This document shows, one piece after another, positions 3,027-55,513 of a stretch of DNA of 64,000 bases (positions within the stretch are counted from its first letter, which is position 1; every line of letters starts with the position of its first letter). Source of the DNA: Bacteroidales bacterium (GTDB lineage: Bacteria > Bacteroidota > Bacteroidia > Bacteroidales > UBA932); contig JAFSSE010000024.1 of NCBI GenBank assembly GCA_017445755.1, positions 1-64,000 on the forward strand. Reading direction: 5' to 3'. Below the pieces are notes generated by a model. The model saw nothing but the letters and a program-made list of their open reading frames with translations. It searched no databases and had not been told where the DNA came from. Made by a program: the position numbers and the translations under genes.

Positions 3027-3353
3027 CTACGCTTTTTTGCTGAAACAACGCTCGAAATAGTGGACGGCCTTTTCGTTGCCCAGAAAGTTGTCCTGGATGA
3101 GGGTCGCGCCCATTACGTAACTGACTACAGCCAGGAACAGCTGGTGCCAGGCCCCACAGAACAGGGCAGCACCTACGCACACGAGCGCAAGCGTGTAGAA
3201 TACTATGGTACCAACGGCATTCATAAGGGTGATGCCCTCAACTTTGCGGGCCTCCTCCCAGTTGAACCGCTTTACCAGGCGAATGAATCCCGCCCAGACG
3301 GAGGCGATTGCCTCCCAGATGCGTTTGATTGCTCTTTTCATTGTGTGCTGCAT
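3027..3353 (-). CDS. Small two-helix inner-membrane protein of the element
   Basis: 108 residues. A short amphipathic N-terminus with Trp and Arg is followed by two adjoining hydrophobic segments (about 45-66, AVGTIVFYTLALVCVGAALF, and about 68-88, HQLFLAVVSYVMGATLI) and a charged tail. It overlaps the end of the Cro-like gene by one base, so it is part of the leftward early operon. Small membrane proteins at this place in temperate phages often act in superinfection exclusion or host signalling, but nothing in the sequence decides that. Confidence 0.6.
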   Translation of the reverse strand: MQHTMKRAIKRIWEAIASVWAGFIRLVKRFNWEEARKVEGITLMNAVGTIVFYTLALVCVGAALFCGAWHQLFLAVVSYVMGATLIQDNFLGNEKAVHYFERCFSKKA

Positions 3354-3583
3354 TAAAGTGTTTGGAACAGTTCTTCTACAGGGATTCCCAGCTCTTTGCT
3401 TATCAGCTCCTGTCGCAGGGAATCCGGAGTATAACTACCGTATATCCAACCCTTGACGGTCTGCGGGTGAACCTTGGTGAGCTTCGCCAGCCTGTTAATG
3501 AAATCCTTTTTAGGCGCGATGTGCTCTCTGGCGGGCAGAGCGTCATAAATTTTCCTCAATCCAGTTTTCGGCATATTTTCCAT
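3353..3583 (-). CDS. Cro-like helix-turn-helix regulator
   Basis: 76 residues; start at 3583 (MENMPK), with an alternative at 3574. The segment PKKDFINRLAKLTKVHPQTVKGWIYGS is a helix-turn-helix with the KGW recognition-helix start common in Cro/XRE-type proteins. There is no further domain. It is the first gene of the leftward operon and is read from a promoter that lies within three operator-like sites, facing a longer repressor-like gene; this is the classical layout of a Cro/CI switch. The role as early regulator is inferred from that position. Confidence 0.75.
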   Translation of the reverse strand: MENMPKTGLRKIYDALPAREHIAPKKDFINRLAKLTKVHPQTVKGWIYGSYTPDSLRQELISKELGIPVEELFQTL

Positions 3584-3718: not shown

Positions 3719-3756
3719 GTTGCCAATGTTCAAAACTTTAATGCAACTCTTTGATT

Positions 3757-4185
3757 ATGAACAAAGTAGATAGGTACAAAATTTTGGTACGGCACCTAAA
3801 GGATTTGGGTGTGGTACAGAGCCAAAAGGAGCTTGGACGGCTTTTGGGGTACAGCAATGAATCCTATTTCTCCCAAATCATTAACGGACAGGTTGATGAA
3901 CCCAAAGACTTTATGGAAAAGCTAAAGAAATTGGTTCCGGATATTAACCCGGATTGGATCCAGACAGGGGAGGGAGAGATGACAGGCACAACGCCCCCTC
4001 TTGTGCATCAACACACCCAGAATGGGGACAACATCAACGGCACCCACGTTGAGGTGAAGTCCGATTCCGGAAAGCTCCTTGATGTAATCCTCCAGCAGAG
4101 TGCCCAACTCACGGTGAGCCAGCAGCAGCTATCTAAGAGCCAGGAACAGATTGACAGATTGATTTCGATAATTGAAAAAAAGTAA
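3757..4185 (+). CDS. CI-like repressor without a peptidase domain
   Basis: 142 residues from the ATG at 3757. Residues ~1-70 form a helix-turn-helix (SQKELGRLLGYSNESYFSQIINGQ) ending in WIQTGEGEMTG, the ending typical of Bacteroidota phage CI-like N-terminal domains. The C-terminal part is a Gln/Ser-rich coiled coil (about 105-140, LTVSQQQLSKSQEQIDRLISI) that would serve dimerisation. There is no S24 LexA-type Ser/Lys peptidase domain, so induction by RecA-stimulated self-cleavage is not expected. The gene diverges from the Cro-like gene across the operator region and starts a three-gene rightward operon. Confidence 0.8.
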   Translation: MNKVDRYKILVRHLKDLGVVQSQKELGRLLGYSNESYFSQIINGQVDEPKDFMEKLKKLVPDINPDWIQTGEGEMTGTTPPLVHQHTQNGDNINGTHVEVKSDSGKLLDVILQQSAQLTVSQQQLSKSQEQIDRLISIIEKK

Positions 4186-4190
4186 GCAGT

Positions 4191-4700
4191 ATGAAAAGGA
4201 TTCTAACGACAGTTGCCATTTTGTTCACAGTGGCCGTTTCCAGCCTCTCTGGACAGATTAAGAATGCCGGGTGCTACCTGCGTATGGTTGAGCCGGAAAA
4301 CGAGGAATTGAGCCTTGAAAATGACCTTGTGCGGATTGATTTCACATTCAGCAGCTACAACTACTTCTGCGATGTGACATTCCGGAACAAAACCGGACAG
4401 GTGCTCACGATAGACTGGGATAAGAGCGTGGTGATAATCGAGGAGGAGAGCGACCGGATCATCTTTGACGATACGAGGATGATTGACAAAGGGAGGCTGG
4501 GGACTGCAACGCTGGCTCCGGGCACCAAGATCACCAAGGCCATTGCCTCAGCACAGCATATCGAGCTGGAGATGGAATACTACACAAAGGGCTGGGTGAA
4601 GAAACGTGGTACCCAGTATATCGGATTCATTTTCCCCGTCACCACCGAGGACGGCCAGACAACCAACTGCCAGTGTAAAATAAGCGTTTCCTTACAATGA
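4191..4700 (+). CDS. Secreted element-encoded protein, possible lysogenic-conversion factor
   Basis: 169 residues with a clear Sec signal peptide (MKRILTTVAILFTVAVSSLSG, predicted cut near residue 20). It begins 5 bases after the repressor stop and overlaps the next gene's start by 4 bases. The mature part is strand-rich (VRIDFTFSSYNYFCDVTFRNKTG, SVVIIEEES, ITKAIASAQHIELEMEYY) and contains four Cys, like a small periplasmic or surface beta-sandwich. Its place between two regulators in the lysogen-expressed operon suggests a protein made in the lysogen, for instance for superinfection exclusion. The function is unknown. Confidence 0.7.
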   Translation: MKRILTTVAILFTVAVSSLSGQIKNAGCYLRMVEPENEELSLENDLVRIDFTFSSYNYFCDVTFRNKTGQVLTIDWDKSVVIIEEESDRIIFDDTRMIDKGRLGTATLAPGTKITKAIASAQHIELEMEYYTKGWVKKRGTQYIGFIFPVTTEDGQTTNCQCKISVSLQ

Positions 4701-4957
4701 ATACCGAAGTGACAAAGCAGATAATGGAGCGTTTCTACCAGTGTCTGGATGAGCTGATAGAGACAAAGACGATCCGTGGCGTGAACACGTACTGCCGTCT
4801 GTACGACATTGACAGGCGCAACCTCATTGCACAACGGAAAGACCTCAACCGTGGCTGGTTCCAGGTCTCCTGGCTCCAGCCGATGGTGCGGGAGTTCGGA
4901 GTGAGTGCCCGCTGGCTGCTGACTGGCTACGGTAAGATGTTCGACAGAGAGCGATGA
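4697..4957 (+). CDS. Small repressor-like DNA-binding protein
   Basis: 86 residues, overlapping the secreted-protein gene by 4 bases. The middle has the pattern of a helix-turn-helix (GVNTYCRLYDIDRRNLIAQRKDL), and the C-terminus reads EFGVSARWLLTGYGKMF, a close relative of the W-L-TGEGEMF ending of phage CI N-terminal domains. It therefore looks like a bare DNA-binding domain of the same family as the repressor upstream. It is the last gene before the palindrome array and a candidate binder of that array; that link is inference. Confidence 0.7.
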   Translation: MNTEVTKQIMERFYQCLDELIETKTIRGVNTYCRLYDIDRRNLIAQRKDLNRGWFQVSWLQPMVREFGVSARWLLTGYGKMFDRER

Positions 4958-4961
4958 CGGA

Positions 4962-5008
4962 AAAGGGGTGCATTTTGCTTAAGCAAATTTGCATCCCTTT
5001 CTTCTTTC
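4962..5008 (+). terminator. Terminator of the repressor operon, built around a palindrome copy
   Basis: AAAGGGGTGCA (4962-4972) pairs with TGCATCCCTTT (4990-5000) with one G-T pair. The first copy of the TTTTGCTTAAGCAAAW palindrome (4973-4988) forms the top of the same hairpin across a one-base bulge, and a pyrimidine-rich tract follows. It begins 5 bases after the last gene of the rightward operon. Confidence 0.6.
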
Positions 5009-5513
5009 CCCCATACCCCCTATTATCTATCTACCACATCTCTTTGTATAAACGTATATTTATATTCTGGAATATAAAGCGCGTGCGCGCACGCGAGGGC
5101 AAACAAAAACGGCCTCTGACGCGCTTGTAAAGCCGATTTTCAAAACCTCTGATTTTTGCTTAAGCAAAATAGGCTATTTATATTATTGATTATCAACATA
5201 TTACAAATTTTGCTTAAGCAAAATACAGAAAACCACCTAAACCACTGATATTTAGCACTTTATAATTTTGCTTAAGCAAAAAGTCAAGCAAAATTCAAGC
5301 AAAAATAGTGTTTGTATTTTGCTTAAGCAAAACGCACATACTTACTCGCTGATTATCAATACTTTGAAAATTTTGCTTAAGCAAAATGCAAGAATAAAGG
5401 CACTGGAAAACATCGAAAAACGGGCAATTTTAGCCCGAAATATTTTTGCTTAAGCAAAATGAAGTGTCTTTATTCCTCATTTTCAGCGACTTGTAATTTT
5501 TGCTTAAGCAAAT
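4973..5513. repeat. Array of eight palindromes TTTTGCTTAAGCAAAA
   Basis: This fills the 512-base gap between 4957 and 5470 and runs into the integrase gene. Copies lie at 4973-4988, 5154-5169, 5208-5223, 5266-5281, 5317-5332, 5371-5386, 5444-5459 and 5498-5513. Six are perfect 16-bp palindromes; the first and last differ by one end base. Start-to-start spacing is 181, 54, 58, 51, 54, 73 and 54. Two extra half sites (CAAGCAAAA) lie at 5285 and 5296. TGATTATCAA precedes copies 3 and 6 at the same distance. There is no credible gene in the stretch. Likely roles are an iterated operator, a replication or partition site, or a recombination accessory region. Confidence 0.9.
5080..5095. repeat. GC-rich 16-bp palindrome inside the AT-rich array
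   Basis: CGCGTGCGCGCACGCG is a perfect palindrome made entirely of CpG/TpG/CpA steps, placed in the 165-base interval between the first two AT-rich palindromes. It can form a cruciform or Z-DNA, or serve as a protein or methylation target. No function is known to me. Confidence 0.8.
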
Positions 5514-6744
5514 CCAATACTTTTCTGTTGGCCGTGTCTATCGGTTTCCAAGATTTCTTGATATAGACATCCGTAACCCTCAGCTTCTCATCCACGTGGT
5601 TGAGTGCCGTGTGAACGGTGTACTTATCCACCCCGGCCTCATTCACCGCCAGCGTTGCCCAGGTATGCCGGGCAGAGTAAAACTCAAGGTCATCAATGCC
5701 CAGCTCCTCTCCGACAGATTTAAGCCCCTTATTGAGCGAAGTGGTGAACGTATTGATTGAGCTGTACATCTTGTAGAAACAGAACACTCTCTGGCCGGAG
5801 GGGTCGCGGTACCTGGCAAGCAATGGTTCCAGTTCCGGCTGAATCTCCAGGGAGATCTCTGCCCGGTCTGCCCGCCTGTTCCTGGTTTTCTTCCGCTGGT
5901 ATGTTATCCTCCCCCCGTTGCAGTCCTCGCACTCGTACAGATCCGCCTCATTCATCCCCACAAGATAGAAACTGATGAGCCACGCATCCCGCGCCAGATT
6001 GCGCCTGTTCTGCCCCGGCTGGAGTATCTTCGTGTCCGGCAAGTCACGCAGGGCCTTGACCTGTTCCAGGGTGATTGCCCGCCACCGCGCCTGCTCAACC
6101 TTGGGCAGCTTCACTTTCTTGAAAGGGGATTGCGGGATTCTGATGATGCCCGCATCCTCATCGTTGAACTCTGCCTTGGCCTGGTTGAGGATCGCTCTCA
6201 GCTGTGACGGATAGAGGCTCTGTGCCCGGCTTCCTTTCTTCCTGTTCTTTCTCGCTGGCTGTGCAGCAATCCAGTCTATCCAGTCCTGTATGAACCGTGC
6301 CGTCACCTCCTTGACGCTCACGCACTCCCTGCCAACGAACCTCACCAGATTGTTCAGCGCACCCTCATAGCTCAATGCGTTCCCCTCGTGCCCCGTGGCA
6401 CGGAGCCTGGAGACAATGCCCCGCCCGTATGCCACAATATCCAGGTCGAACTGCTCTCCGTCCTGCTCATTCTCCAGCAACTCCACGACCTCATCCACTG
6501 TCATACCTTTCAGACGCTCTCCGGCCCTGTCGCATTTCTGCCGATACTTCTTAATGAGGGCATCGGTGTAGTCAATGTATGTCTGGTTTTTGAGTTTCAG
6601 TGAGCGTGTCAGATCCTCTTTCGTCACATACCAGCTCGTGGCGATGTAACGCTTGCGCCCGTTATGGAATACCCGTATCTTGATATTCCAGGTGCCGTCC
6701 TGTTTCTTCTGGTGGGCGTACACCTCTGCCTTAAATGTTGCCAT
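5470..6744 (-). CDS. Tyrosine recombinase (integrase) of the element
   Basis: 424 residues from the ATG at 6744 (MATFKAEVYAHQKK); the longer open frame to 6822 has no supporting start. It has an N-terminal arm-binding-like domain (~1-90), a SAM-like core-binding domain (~95-210) and a catalytic domain (~220-400). Catalytic residues visible are Arg 359 and His 360 in YSARHTWAT, His 383 in LNHV and the nucleophile Tyr 394 in DVYIKK. At the usual first-Arg position the sequence reads YLVGMNEADL (Asn 265), as in a subgroup of Bacteroidota integrases. It is adjacent to a tRNA-Arg gene, the probable attachment site. Its last codons (LDLLKQKL) are encoded by the eighth palindrome copy. Confidence 0.93.
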   Translation of the reverse strand: MATFKAEVYAHQKKQDGTWNIKIRVFHNGRKRYIATSWYVTKEDLTRSLKLKNQTYIDYTDALIKKYRQKCDRAGERLKGMTVDEVVELLENEQDGEQFDLDIVAYGRGIVSRLRATGHEGNALSYEGALNNLVRFVGRECVSVKEVTARFIQDWIDWIAAQPARKNRKKGSRAQSLYPSQLRAILNQAKAEFNDEDAGIIRIPQSPFKKVKLPKVEQARWRAITLEQVKALRDLPDTKILQPGQNRRNLARDAWLISFYLVGMNEADLYECEDCNGGRITYQRKKTRNRRADRAEISLEIQPELEPLLARYRDPSGQRVFCFYKMYSSINTFTTSLNKGLKSVGEELGIDDLEFYSARHTWATLAVNEAGVDKYTVHTALNHVDEKLRVTDVYIKKSWKPIDTANRKVLDLLKQKLQVAENEE

Positions 6745-6820
6745 AGTCGATTGCTCTGTAGAACTATTGTAGAACTTTTCACCGCAAATATACGCAAAAA
6801 GTGCGGAATAGTGCGGTAAC

Positions 6821-6848
6821 AAAAAAGCCCGGCCAGACGGTCGGGCTT
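6821..6848 (-). terminator. Rho-independent terminator after tRNA-Arg
   Basis: Read leftward: AAGCCCGACC, a four-base loop, GGCCGGGCTT, then six T. The 10-bp stem with one G-T pair sits 8 bases after the tRNA 3' end and before the integrase gene. It ends the tRNA transcript and insulates the integrase from read-through. Confidence 0.85.
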
Positions 6849-6855
6849 AGAAAGG

Positions 6856-6930
6856 TGGTAGCTCCGGGCAGAATCGAACTGCCATCTACGGTTTAGGAAA
6901 CCGCTATTCTATCCGTTGAACTACAGAGCC
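6856..6930 (-). tRNA. tRNA-Arg (anticodon CCT)
   Basis: The reverse strand folds as a cloverleaf. The acceptor GGCTCTG pairs with CGGAGCT with two G-U pairs. The D-arm contains GTTCAACGGATAGAA, the anticodon stem and loop are GCGGT-TTCCTAA-ACCGT with anticodon CCT, and the T-arm contains GGCAGTTCGATTCTGCC. The discriminator base is A and CCA is encoded (6856-6858). It lies directly beside the integrase gene, so it is likely part of the attachment site, or a copy brought by the element that replaces a disrupted host gene (see the fragment at 7019-7059). Confidence 0.93.
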
Positions 6931-7018: not shown

Positions 7019-7059
7019 CGTTTAGGAAACTTCCGTTCTATCCGTTGAACTATGAGGCC
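7019..7059 (-). pseudogene. 5' half of a second tRNA-Arg(CCT), truncated
   Basis: The reverse strand begins GGCCTCATAGTTCAACGG and continues through a CCT anticodon loop (GTTTCCTAAAC). After position ~43 the sequence stops matching a tRNA: no T-arm with GTTCGA and no clean 3' acceptor strand can be formed. It is not a straight copy of the neighbouring tRNA, since the acceptor stems differ (GGCCTCA against GGCTCTG). It is best read as a host tRNA-Arg cut in or just after the anticodon loop by an integration event. A degenerate but functional tRNA cannot be fully excluded. Confidence 0.6.
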
Positions 7060-7096
7060 ATACCGCCCGGGCTAAGGCCCGGCATAAAGCGGTGGA

Positions 7097-7860: not shown

Positions 7861-9663
7861 TCAATCCTCACTGCCGGAATTTCTCTTACGGGCAAGGGGA
7901 TCCAGCAGGATTTTGCGCATCCTCATATGGTTCGGGGTAACTTCCATGAGCTCATCCTCCTGGATATACTCGAGGGCCTCTTCGAGGGAGAATTTGATTG
8001 CAGGAGGCAGCATCACCTTCTCGTCAGAGCCGGAGGCACGGACGTTGGTGAGTTTCTTGGTCTTGCAGATATTGATGTTCAGGTCCCGGTCGCGGGTATG
8101 CTCTCCGACGACCTGACCGGCGTAGATTTCCTCGCCCGGCTCTACGAAAAAGCGTCCCCGGTCGAGAAGTTTGTTCATGGAATAAGCGACGGCCTCGCCG
8201 GTCTCGAGGGAGACCAGGGAGCCGTTCGTACGCATCTCGATTTCTCCCTTGTAGGGCTGATAATCCTTGAAACGGTGGGCTACAACCGCCTCTCCCTGGG
8301 TTGCGGTGAGGAGATTGCTCCTAAGTCCCATAAGCCCTCGTGTCGGAATTTCAAATTCGAGGAGCGTCCGGTCTCCACGCGGTTCCATTCTCACGAGAGC
8401 GGCCTTCCGCCGGGTCGAGAGCTCGATTGCGGCTCCGACAAACTGCTCGGGGACCTCGATGGAAAGCTCCTCTATCGGTTCGCAGCGCTGGCCGTTTATG
8501 GTCTTGTCGAGAACCTTCGGCTGACCGACCTGGAGTTCGAAACCTTCGCGGCGCATAGTCTCGATAAGAACCGAAAGATGGAGAACGCCACGGCCGTAAA
8601 CCACGAAGGAATCAGCGTTTACGCCAGGTTTCACCCTCAGCGCCAGGTTCTTCTCCAACTCCCGGTCAAGGCGATCCTTGAGGTGGCGGGAAGTTACGTA
8701 TTTCCCGTCTTTTCCAAAGAAGGGAGAGTTATTGATCATGAAGAGCATGGACATCGTCGGCTCGTCAACCGCAATCGGAGGGAGGGCCTCAGGGGTCTCA
8801 AAGTCAGCAATCGTGTCCCCGATTTCGAATCCCTCGATTCCTACGACAGCGCAGATGTCCCCACAGCCAACCTCAGAAACGCTGGCTTTGCCCAGCCCCT
8901 CGAAGACCATAAGCTGCTTGATCTTCGACTTCTCGACGATATCATAGCGTTTGCACAAGCTGACCGGCATACCGGCCTTCAGTTCCCCGCGGGTTATGCG
9001 GCCGACGGCGATACGCCCTACATACGGAGAGTACTCAAGGGAGGAAATCAGCATCTGGGGAGTGCCCTCGACTACTTCAGGAGCTGGAATCTCGGAAAGA
9101 ATCGTATCCAGAAGCGCGGTGATGTCGTTTGCCGGCTGTTTCCAGTCGAGGGACATCCAACCCTGCTTCGCGCTGCCGTAAACAGTCTTGTAGTCGAGCT
9201 GGTCGTCTGTCGCCCCAAGGTTGAACATGAGCTCGAAAACCTCGTCCTGGACCTCGTCCGGACGGCAATTCGGCTTATCGACCTTATTGATTACGACTAT
9301 CGGTTTCTTCCCCATCTGAAGGGCCTTCTGGAGGACGAAACGGGTCTGGGGCATGCAGCCCTCGAAAGCATCAACCAGAAGCAGGACGCCGTCCGCCATA
9401 TTAAGGACGCGTTCCACTTCGCCGCCGAAATCGCTGTGACCGGGAGTATCGATAATATTGATTTTCACTCCCTTATACGTAACCGAGACATTCTTGGCAA
9501 GGATGGTGATACCCCGCTCGCGCTCCAGGTCGTTATTGTCGAGGATCAGGTTTCCAAGATCCTCGGGGCGGCGCACAAGGTTCGCCTGATAGATCATCCT
9601 GTCGACAAGGGTCGTCTTGCCGTGGTCGACGTGGGCGATGATCGCAATATTCCTGATTTCCAT
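7861..9663 (-). CDS. typA: Ribosome-associated GTPase TypA/BipA
   Basis: 600 residues. This translational GTPase binds the 70S ribosome and helps 50S assembly and stress or cold adaptation. The G domain motifs are intact: AHVDHGKTTLVD (10-21), ERERGITI switch I, DTPGH (72-76) and NKVD (126-129). The C-terminal half carries the EF-G-like domains and the BipA-specific end (TPNHMRMRKILLDPLARKR). The length is typical. A TAATTTTG element on the minus strand at 9685-9692 should drive it, divergent from guaA. Confidence 0.97.
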   Translation of the reverse strand: MEIRNIAIIAHVDHGKTTLVDRMIYQANLVRRPEDLGNLILDNNDLERERGITILAKNVSVTYKGVKINIIDTPGHSDFGGEVERVLNMADGVLLLVDAFEGCMPQTRFVLQKALQMGKKPIVVINKVDKPNCRPDEVQDEVFELMFNLGATDDQLDYKTVYGSAKQGWMSLDWKQPANDITALLDTILSEIPAPEVVEGTPQMLISSLEYSPYVGRIAVGRITRGELKAGMPVSLCKRYDIVEKSKIKQLMVFEGLGKASVSEVGCGDICAVVGIEGFEIGDTIADFETPEALPPIAVDEPTMSMLFMINNSPFFGKDGKYVTSRHLKDRLDRELEKNLALRVKPGVNADSFVVYGRGVLHLSVLIETMRREGFELQVGQPKVLDKTINGQRCEPIEELSIEVPEQFVGAAIELSTRRKAALVRMEPRGDRTLLEFEIPTRGLMGLRSNLLTATQGEAVVAHRFKDYQPYKGEIEMRTNGSLVSLETGEAVAYSMNKLLDRGRFFVEPGEEIYAGQVVGEHTRDRDLNINICKTKKLTNVRASGSDEKVMLPPAIKFSLEEALEYIQEDELMEVTPNHMRMRKILLDPLARKRNSGSED

Positions 9664-53653: not shown

Positions 53654-55513
53654 TTAGAATTCAAGAAGGGTTATGACTCCGTCCATGGTAGAAGCTAGGA
53701 TGCGTCGTCTTCCGGACGGGGCGGGAACCTCGAGCATCGGGTTTACAAGGGCTATTGAGATTTTATGCGCCCAGAGCAAGGAGCCGTCTTCGGAAGAGAA
53801 GGCAAGCAGATTTCCCTTGTCGGTCGGGTACAAGACCGCGGAACCGACCTCCAGTATCGATGAGCAGCCGATTTCGTAGCCGGCTCCTGTCTCGACGGAC
53901 CATTTTTTGGACCCGTCCTCAGCATTGAAAGCGAAAAGACGATGCCACATGGACTTCGTATAGACGGTTTCTCCGTCGCCGGAAAGACCTATCGCCTCGC
54001 GGGCGCAGGCGGGATGTTCCACAACAGTTTCCCCCGTCTTTGCATCGATTACATACATGCTCCGGTCCGGAACAGCAATGAAAATCTTCCCATGGGATTT
54101 CACGGGCCAGACGGCGGCTGGAGAGTACATCCGGGACGGCTTTTTGCACTGCCAGACCCACTGAAGCTCTCCGGTTTTCGTATCGAGGGAATAGAGCCGG
54201 TTGGCCCATGATCCGAAAACGACCTGGTCCTCGTCCACATAGGCACGGCACTCCACGAATCCCTCAACATTGTCAAAGGTCCAGACCGGTTTACCGCTGC
54301 GCAGTTTCAGGGCACGGAAAACGCCGTCAGAGGCGCCCACAAAGACCTTTCCGTCGAGGATAACCGGAGATGCGAGAACGGATTTTGCGGCCCTCTGGAT
54401 CCAGATGGTCTTCCCGGTCGAGGCATTCAGTCCGTAGATCGAGCCGTCGGCACAGCCGAACACGAGATATTTTCCGGAGACGGCAGGGGTCGAGAAAATC
54501 TTCCCCGGAAAGAGTCTTTCCCATATTTCCTTCCCGTCATCGAGACGGACCGCCTTCACAAAACCGGAGGCGGTTGTATAATAAACCACGCCATCCTTCC
54601 TTGCAAAACCGGCGACCACATTGCTCTTCTCCCGGATTTTCCATATCTCCCGGACGGAGGGATATTTCTCGTTCACATCGTACCTCATCCACGGGTAGGA
54701 GTCCGGGAACCCGTCGGCGTCATAGCGGACCGTATCCGCAACCGGCTCAAGCCGACGTCCATACCAGGGCTCCATCTGGACTGCCGTATGGGGGAAGAGA
54801 CGGCGTTCGGAAACCGAGACGCTGTCCTCATAGACAGTAAATACATTGTACCCGGCCGGCTTGGACCTGTCAGTCATGGAAGACCGGCCCAAGACCGCCG
54901 GGATTCCCTCGTAATTCAGGGCCCGGTTCTGGTGCCAGTGGCCGCCTATTTCAAAGCGTACACCTATACGTTTAAGCTCCCTGGTAACATCGAAATAATT
55001 CAGTACCGACGTGTCCTGGGGGTAGTGATTGACAAAAATGCTCTTCTTCCCGCTTTCGATGCCGCGAAGCCATTCCATGCTCTCCTGGGGCAGAAGGGCG
55101 GGAGCCATGCGCATATCCGGACCGCAGGAGCAGCCGAGAAAACGCCAGCCCTTCTCCTCAAACTCGAAGTGCTCATACCCGAAAACCTTCCTGAAAGTGT
55201 TGCATCCGCTTTCGGACCACTTGGCATCATGGTTCCCGGGAACGACATAATACCGGATTTTCAGGGAGTCGAATATCTCCTTTACGGCAACGAGCTCATC
55301 ATCGGCCCCGAAGTCGGTAATATCTCCTCCGAAAATAACGAAATCGAGATCCTCCCGGGAGTTTATATCGTCAATGCAGCGCTGGAGGTCACCTACGGAA
55401 TGGGACCCGAAGGAGAAGTGGTTGTCCGTTATGAAGGCGAAGCGAACCGGCTCTCCGGCTCTGGCAATGACCCCGGCAAGAAGGGCCAGGACAAGGAGGA
55501 TTCTTTTCATCAT
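53654..55513 (-). CDS. Secreted metallophosphoesterase fused to a PQQ-like beta-propeller
   Basis: 619 residues with a signal peptide (to ~20). The calcineurin-like phosphoesterase domain has DNH (Asp 30, His 32), GGD (Asp 64), GNHD (93-96), VNHYP and GGHWHQ. From ~300 onward, PQQ-like propeller blades are seen (KYLVFGCADGSIYGLNASTGKTIW; GKVFVGASDGVFRALKLRSGKPVW; DGETVYTKSMWHRLFAFNAEDGSKKW). It starts within the batD-batE stop (4-base overlap). It is a periplasmic phosphatase or phosphodiesterase of unknown substrate. Confidence 0.92.
   Translation of the reverse strand: MMKRILLVLALLAGVIARAGEPVRFAFITDNHFSFGSHSVGDLQRCIDDINSREDLDFVIFGGDITDFGADDELVAVKEIFDSLKIRYYVVPGNHDAKWSESGCNTFRKVFGYEHFEFEEKGWRFLGCSCGPDMRMAPALLPQESMEWLRGIESGKKSIFVNHYPQDTSVLNYFDVTRELKRIGVRFEIGGHWHQNRALNYEGIPAVLGRSSMTDRSKPAGYNVFTVYEDSVSVSERRLFPHTAVQMEPWYGRRLEPVADTVRYDADGFPDSYPWMRYDVNEKYPSVREIWKIREKSNVVAGFARKDGVVYYTTASGFVKAVRLDDGKEIWERLFPGKIFSTPAVSGKYLVFGCADGSIYGLNASTGKTIWIQRAAKSVLASPVILDGKVFVGASDGVFRALKLRSGKPVWTFDNVEGFVECRAYVDEDQVVFGSWANRLYSLDTKTGELQWVWQCKKPSRMYSPAAVWPVKSHGKIFIAVPDRSMYVIDAKTGETVVEHPACAREAIGLSGDGETVYTKSMWHRLFAFNAEDGSKKWSVETGAGYEIGCSSILEVGSAVLYPTDKGNLLAFSSEDGSLLWAHKISIALVNPMLEVPAPSGRRRILASTMDGVITLLEF

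Follow-up and report, generated by a model that had tools for sequence, protein, structure and literature searches.

A conserved array of near-palindromes at the integrase gene of Bacteroidales prophages: a possible parS-like target of a phage ParB-family protein

The window analysed here is a stretch of 64,000 nucleotides from a Bacteroidales bacterium (GenBank assembly GCA_017445755.1, contig JAFSSE010000024.1). The contig begins at position 1 inside the early operon of a prophage, and most of the phage is missing. The first gene of this operon, which runs off the contig, encodes a Cro-like HTH protein (3353–3583, reverse strand). On the forward strand, a CI-like repressor gene (3751–4185) is the first gene of a lysogeny-type operon, and downstream of it is the gene (4697–4957) for an 86-amino-acid protein (phrog_9710), which we call p86. 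The tyrosine integrase gene (5470–6744, reverse strand; Phage_int_SAM_5; stop codon, 5470–5472) converges on the p86 gene. The prophage presumably attaches at a tRNA-Arg (CCT) gene (6856–6930, reverse strand). About 100 bp outside this gene there is a second, partial 5′ half of a tRNA, at 7020–7062 in the window and at 7915–7958 in the locus L006.

Between the convergent 3′ ends of the p86 and integrase genes, the 16-bp near-palindrome TTTTGCTTAAGCAAAA occurs eight times at 4973–5513, as a reading of the sequence alone had claimed. Six copies are perfect (copies 2 to 7; 5154–5169, 5208–5223, 5266–5281, 5317–5332, 5371–5386 and 5444–5459), and copy 1 (4973–4988) and copy 8 (5498–5513) each have one end-base change. 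When up to three mismatches are allowed, 0.22 copies are expected by chance, and eight copies were reached in none of 100 shuffles. The start-to-start distances are 181, 54, 58, 51, 54, 73 and 54 bp; thus, the spacings of 51, 54, 54, 54, 58 and 73 bp given earlier were borne out, and one of 181 bp is to be added. The array had also been described as gene-free. It lies mostly between genes, but copy 8 falls within the reading frame of the integrase, at the coding end. Copy 1, from which copy 2 is 181 bp away, forms the upper stem and loop of the p86 terminator hairpin (4963–5000). Unlike this terminator, the p86 terminators of L006 and of phage Versailles do not contain the palindrome. On the array side away from the integrase gene, there is a C-rich box, CCCCCATACCCCCTAT (5008–5023, forward strand), followed by an AT-rich stretch.

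In the host assembly (2.18 Mb, 44 contigs, 83% complete), a search at up to two mismatches found only the eight array copies of TTTTGCTTAAGCAAAA. The genome-wide count that the sequence-only reading had proposed therefore confines the palindrome to the array, and a chromosome-wide repeat (REP or MITE) is not supported. A CRISPR array is not supported either, because the spacers are non-uniform (3–167 nt), have a common internal motif and recur between phages; the same verdict had been reached earlier and is confirmed here as judged by the spacers. An ordinary operator, likewise dismissed before, does not agree with the position of the array between convergent genes.

When relatives were first sought by a pair of TTAA-type sites, a single viral contig, L005, was obtained. 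A search with p86 gave 25 further loci. In 21 of them an array lies beyond the p86 gene, mostly composed of TTTGCTTAGGCAAA and in either orientation; among the other four, L010 and L015 end before the array place, and L029 and L030 are without an array. Scans with the motif yielded 31 viral stretches, many of them already known, and 15 genome contigs, which include contigs of Bacteroides acidifaciens, Muribaculum, Duncaniella, Barnesiella, Prevotella and Dysgonomonas. L043 was rejected as a member because both its sites arise from codons for LLKQK in a phage gene that is not related, and L057 and L059 were rejected because they carry a different repeat, in Fibrobacteres. After these three were dropped, clusters of 2–12 copies of TTTGC-YTAR-GCAAA are present at 61 loci, one contig often standing under two locus ids, and represent 37 distinct arrays (64 and 40 before the removal). 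The clusters are mostly located at the 3′ end of a tyrosine integrase gene in Bacteroidales prophages, and the cluster start is within the integrase coding end in 28 of 36 elements. Often, the palindrome itself supplies the final integrase codons (for LLKQK or LPKQK). Compared with the window, full-length integrases are 57–68% identical and p86 is 62–84% identical, and the motif hardly varies; G035 has a variant array, TTTTGATTAGGCAAA, and in L028 canonical and degenerate sites are mixed. The C-rich box (CCCCCAYACCCCCTAT), which adjoins an AT-rich stretch, is found at the array edge away from the integrase gene in 8 of 10 elements, and additionally in L005 by a relaxed pattern. Two sites at 30–60 bp were seen in 3 of 398 genomes of the family to which the host belongs, one of the three being that of the window. 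Thus, the array travels with the prophage and is not a trait of the lineage. Judged by sequence comparison, the array is a conserved feature of a temperate phage family in Bacteroides and relatives. The proposal that it may be a binding array for a dimeric protein is supported. The array is limited to the element, and relatives have conserved it together with the element.

Bacteroides phage Versailles (ON453897.1) has the same integrase and p86 as the window. Its array of nine sites (1573–1960) consists of eight full 14-mers and one 12-mer core, and no such site is present elsewhere in the 58 kb. Versailles differs from the window in that its sites are mostly TTTGCCTAAGCAAA, its early genes are of the SbcC/RecT type and a ParB is present. 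The available part of Lamy-Besnier et al. 2023 (PMC10197239) reports that the prophage is induced, with raised coverage and a circularisation signal in vivo; by a word search, "palindrom" appears nowhere in the main text of that paper. The core of the Versailles array is identical in B. acidifaciens L058, which is a near-identical Versailles prophage with a deletion. In L058, a fragment of an MBL-type gene (residues 1–126) adjoins the end of a radical-SAM gene (residue 286 on), and the genes between them, ParB included, are missing. Because this internal deletion took out ParB, L058 was rejected as a counterexample. L131 (Bacteroides acidifaciens DSM 15896) is also a near-identical Versailles prophage, from which an internal deletion removes the replication genes and ParB. 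A reverse transcriptase is annotated near the Versailles tail genes (L072 4082–5269; Versailles 54082–55269) and perhaps belongs to a diversity-generating element.

The distances between copies follow the DNA helix. Site-to-site distances cluster near 22, 31, 49, 54 and 66–74 bp. Similar spacers were collapsed to 161, and the 158 below 100 bp were used to measure helical periodicity. The R value was 0.51 at 11.0 bp, 0.495 at 10.75 bp and 0.45 at 10.5 bp; none of 2000 jittered controls was as high, and the best R in these controls averaged 0.13. For the count of IHF-like sites, a harder collapse to 125 spacers was used, of which 40 belong to the 51–58-bp class. In this class, WTCARN4TTR occurs in 19 of 40 spacers in the forward and in 8 of 40 in the reverse orientation, against 0.56 expected per strand, and the forward form always starts 17–18 nt ahead of the next 14-bp core. 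The strict form WATCARN4TTR, which we take to be the IHF consensus (WTCARN4TTR is the same with the first A relaxed), occurs forward in 10 of 40 spacers of the class, against 0.20 expected. In the window, the relaxed form is present in three of the seven intervals: TATCAACATATTA (5191–5203), TATCAATACTTTG (5354–5366) and the weaker TTTCAGCGACTTG (5481–5493), each on the forward strand of a 54-bp unit and assigned by the same presumed consensus. A common unit can thus be described as palindrome, bend site, palindrome. As in sites of the P1 type, a putative IHF site stands at a fixed place between the boxes.

A protein of the Versailles early operon matches Pfam ParB_N and HTH_ParB above the cut-off, and three of three relatives tested pass NCBIfam TIGR00180. 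Among 34 records or genomes searched, a Versailles-type ParB at 70–82% identity was found in 22, and four more have only a distant match (E about 1e-12). Twenty-one of the 22 ParB holders have an array, and the remaining one, G002, ends before the array place. Altogether, 27 records combine an array with ParB (these 21, Versailles, G035 with its variant array, G445, G446, G449 and G451); they are not all independent, since several stand for a phage that is present in two collections. G447, which has ParB and one site 50 bp from the contig end, was left outside the 27. Eight array-bearing sources in the 34-record search are without ParB. Four of them (G008, G018, G020 and the window genome) are fragments or contig ends and break off short of where ParB is expected, and G021 derives from Versailles by deletion. 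In G013 (12.9 kb), an array is present and ParB is absent; the expected ParB position would barely fall inside the record, within about 0.3 kb of the end, and G013 may be a second real absence. The last two, G001 and G026, are one phage (L005/L065, 55.7 kb), which has no such ParB and carries a DNA methylase in the ParB slot. As L005 keeps three exact sites and L065 keeps four, this phage is a clear exception to the pairing of array and ParB.

A phage-type ParB was not found in the assembly of the window, which is 83% complete and in which the phage is cut at the contig start. The exonuclease of the window phage (743–1924) resembles that of another phage lineage (L162–L167), and p86, ParB and the array were not found in the fetched L162–L167, the early-gene kin of the window phage. 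Therefore, the window phage is of mosaic make-up, and it may be without ParB. The absence of ParB from array-less kin was dropped as evidence, because most Versailles early genes are also missing there. G463 has a ParB at 57–58% identity, a p86 at 47–49% identity with an internal stop, and about 70 bp between the p86 and integrase genes; its integrase gave no match to the window integrase at E 1e-15. We found no array in G463: a 10-mer scan, which detects the arrays of Versailles and G035, gave only a four-copy word at 17.35 kb. A near-palindrome scan of ParB relatives at 50–60% identity, which found the Versailles array and missed that of G035, gave no array, and among these relatives G463 alone covers the interval between p86 and the integrase. 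In 22 of a set of 28 ParB-bearing records there is no p86, integrase or site, each record having at most about 10.6 kb upstream of ParB; in Versailles, ParB and p86 are separated by 10.7 kb. Three of these 22 records, G452, G453 and G455, stop in the early operon.

It should be mentioned that the Versailles annotation contains no ParA. None of the 16 ParB sequences tested has the motif for ParA binding, (L/F/I)G(K/R)G(L/F/I), as given in the available part of PMC12704722. In the CTPase fold, GERRYRA is kept and Box III has diverged (by eye), and divergence of Box III is common in orphan ParBs according to the same part of that survey.

The array site has TT at −6/−5 and C at −3, which are common to parS, so that its half-site is parS-like. 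The half-site of NBS, the Noc site, also has TT at −6/−5 and C at −3. We aligned the phage ParB with Caulobacter ParB (6t1f). In the accessible portion of Jalal 2020 (PMC7383237), ten DNA-contact residues are named, and R173 and G201 are those that separate parS from NBS specificity. All ten fall on the right letters in our alignment; therefore, its register is sure. Caulobacter Q162, K171 and S172 are kept in the phage ParB, and R204 is K or R. Thus, the presumed HTH_ParB docking, the TT and C of the half-site and these three residues are likenesses to both Noc/NBS and chromosomal ParB/parS. In contrast, R173 (Q in Noc) is replaced by P or T, N178 by K and G201 by K or T, and the core bases of the site differ. 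R173 aligns with residue 146 of the phage ParB, which is P in 19 of 21 sequences and T only in L063 and G035. The array of L063 has mostly TTAA sites and that of G035 has ATTAGG/ATTAAG, and the 19 elements with P146 are dominated by CCTAAG. The coincidence of T146 with variant arrays has a chance of 1 in 210 for one position, and four positions were candidates. The varying site bases (positions 5–6) differ from the base that residue 173 reads in ParB and Noc. Pairwise distances of motif and ParB HTH showed no significant correlation (rho 0.05, p 0.33; for the recognition part, rho 0.22, p 0.07). In p86, no change is shared by L063 and G035. The comparison of residues and motifs favours ParB over p86 as the binder, though thinly.

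Among the readings compared here we prefer one, as a tentative but serious possibility, not far from an even chance: the near-palindromes are parS-like sites, clustered as a target for the ParB-family protein of the relatives' early (lytic) operon. This reading draws on the co-occurrence with ParB, the parS-like half-sites, the kept contact residues, the coincidence of T146 with variant arrays, the p86 of L047 (see below), the phasing and the convergent genes. It is weakened by L005/L065, G013, G463, the mosaic nature of the window phage, the non-significant distance correlation, the variation at bases other than that read by residue 173, the diverged Box III and the lack of a clear parallel in five distant orphan-ParB phages.

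If the parS-like reading is correct, a ParB dimer would dock on each near-palindrome through HTH_ParB, and a host IHF-type protein would bend the DNA in many of the 51–58-bp units, so that neighbouring sites face each other. The array could then load many ParB clamps beside the phage attachment end. Upon induction, the clamps would spread over the flanking kilobases, reaching the integrase gene and attachment site on one side and the p86/CI operon on the other. The spread clamps might act as a long-range silencer or organiser in the manner of KorB, without ParA-driven partition. We infer binding, clamp loading, spreading and silencing, as well as the possession of a ParB by the window phage. 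Because ParB belongs to the early operon in Versailles, such a lock would act after induction. According to the available part of PMC11790492, KorB of RK2, a ParB relative, loads at the 16-bp OB, moves along DNA as a sliding CTP clamp and shuts off promoters at distances of up to 1.5 kb, aided by a small DNA-binding partner. The phage system resembles KorB and OB in the ParB-like protein, the 16-bp site and the small candidate partner; the distance of about 1.3 kb from array to tRNA, together with p86 on the other side, invites a model of this type. However, OB sites lie upstream of the promoters that KorB controls, whereas the phage sites are clustered between convergent genes. The full proposal, that an orphan ParB clamp at an IHF-bent array is a long-range lock that silences the integrase and lysogeny genes at lysis, with p86 as a possible KorA-like clamp stopper, is in our estimation unlikely as a whole.

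The sequence-only reading had named small proteins of 86 and 94 residues as candidate binders. The 94-residue product has no Pfam or NCBIfam match, and the 86-residue product, p86, stays the main rival to ParB. If p86 binds the array, it might form in the lysogen a nucleoprotein block between the convergent integrase and repressor operons, or an immunity device against incoming phage DNA; we judge this rather unlikely, though not negligible. The co-conservation of array and small regulator, a check proposed earlier, is seen in part: p86 is present in most array-bearing loci, where its gene mostly adjoins the array, and in searches of whole records or genomes it is missing only from G020, a contig that breaks off at the array; the ParB-less L005/L065 has it. 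However, p86 also occurs in kin without the array (four records: L029, L030, PJN03 and G463). In array-less kin p86 is only 39–56% identical and its HTH-like region is changed, which speaks for p86; but the HTH-like region is also changed in L047, where the motif is canonical. The Pfam HTH match of p86 is below the threshold (E 0.018 over 15 residues). Moreover, the p86 gene is 1.6 kb from the array in Versailles and 2.4 kb in L005, while the array stays at the integrase gene. In no plasmid record searched was p86 found.

Replication iterons, a partition (centromere-like) site and an excision complex beside the integrase had been the three earlier guesses at function. An origin of phage replication, in which iterons and the AT-rich stretch are bound by the replisome organizer (phrog_13246) or by p86 as in lambda ori, seems improbable to us. 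No larger cluster of short repeats was found in the Versailles genome, the array is bordered by an AT-rich stretch and a C-rich box, and the region of the Versailles replisome organizer has no comparable cluster; but that gene is about 10 kb from the array, its product is among the faster-changing conserved early proteins (38–52% identity to Versailles) while the motif hardly varies, and cumulative GC skew tracks gene strand and gives no independent origin signal. The partition site is the best of the three guesses. A true centromere would require that ParB on the array moves an extrachromosomal phage circle with a ParA of the host or another source in a carrier state. In its favour are the genuine ParB homologue that accompanies a multi-site array and the circularisation signal and raised in vivo coverage of prophage I48-pp-2.969 (available part of PMC10197239). 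Strict partition is nevertheless doubtful, since no ParA partner is visible in Versailles, the relatives' ParB is without the ParA-binding motif, and the phage has an integrase and sits integrated beside a tRNA gene; we regard a centromere as quite improbable. It is highly improbable that the array provides arm-type sites, or enhancer sites, to the integrase or to an excisionase. The array abuts the integrase gene wherever both are in the fetched DNA, and mostly starts in its coding end, but about 1.3 kb separates it from the attachment end at the tRNA, which also makes an excision complex unlikely, and at this distance its repeats would not flank the attachment core. Separate short repeats between the integrase gene and the tRNA (window 6745–6850, and the same place in L006; by eye) resemble ordinary arm sites, and the integrase diverges to 57% identity while the motif stays.

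The plasmid prophage P1 has ParA and a single compact, IHF-assisted parS, in which ParB boxes surround the IHF site. The phage array resembles P1/P7 parS in the ParB-family protein, the palindromic boxes and the IHF-type bend site at a fixed place between boxes, and is unlike P1 in having 2–12 sites and no annotated ParA (Versailles) and in belonging to an integrated prophage. ParB–parS systems and IHF-assisted parS are thus already known; what is likely new is a conserved multi-site array as the probable target of an orphan phage ParB in temperate, tRNA-associated phages. A text search of the literature for the 14-mers, which reached few subscription papers, found none, and no description of the array was found in the titles and abstract openings on Bacteroides prophages among the matches listed. 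The authors of PMC10286716 state, in the part available, that they know of no characterised phage that has ParB alone, and the 2025 survey (PMC12704722) ties orphan ParBs to mobile elements and assigns no target sites in its available part. As in the phages of these two sources, as far as their available text goes, ParB is here without ParA; the difference is that a conserved candidate target accompanies it. The array is therefore a precise, conserved candidate target for the orphan ParB of an inducible gut phage, for which binding, loading and function are directly testable. In addition, the arrays are a ready marker of this Bacteroidales prophage family.

Orphan ParB-like proteins match in 255 phage records. 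In five distant orphan-ParB phages, a repeated-word scan, which detects the arrays of Versailles and G035, gave nothing in two and no comparable palindrome array in the others; an exact-palindrome scan of the five carries no weight, because it missed the known Versailles array. Repeat clusters were seen in phage PHB09 (11.3 kb, inside replication gene O) and, between genes, in Agrobacterium phage 7-7-1 (41.7–41.9 kb; first 50 kb of 69.4 kb scanned) and Escherichia phage ECO1230-10 (28.5–28.8 kb). The clusters of 7-7-1 (L136 41660–41950) and ECO1230-10 (L137 28500–28775) consist of non-palindromic short repeats in both orientations and could be the sites of their own ParBs. Phage 7-7-1 also has four dispersed TACAAATnATTTGTA sites (L136 32660–39108).
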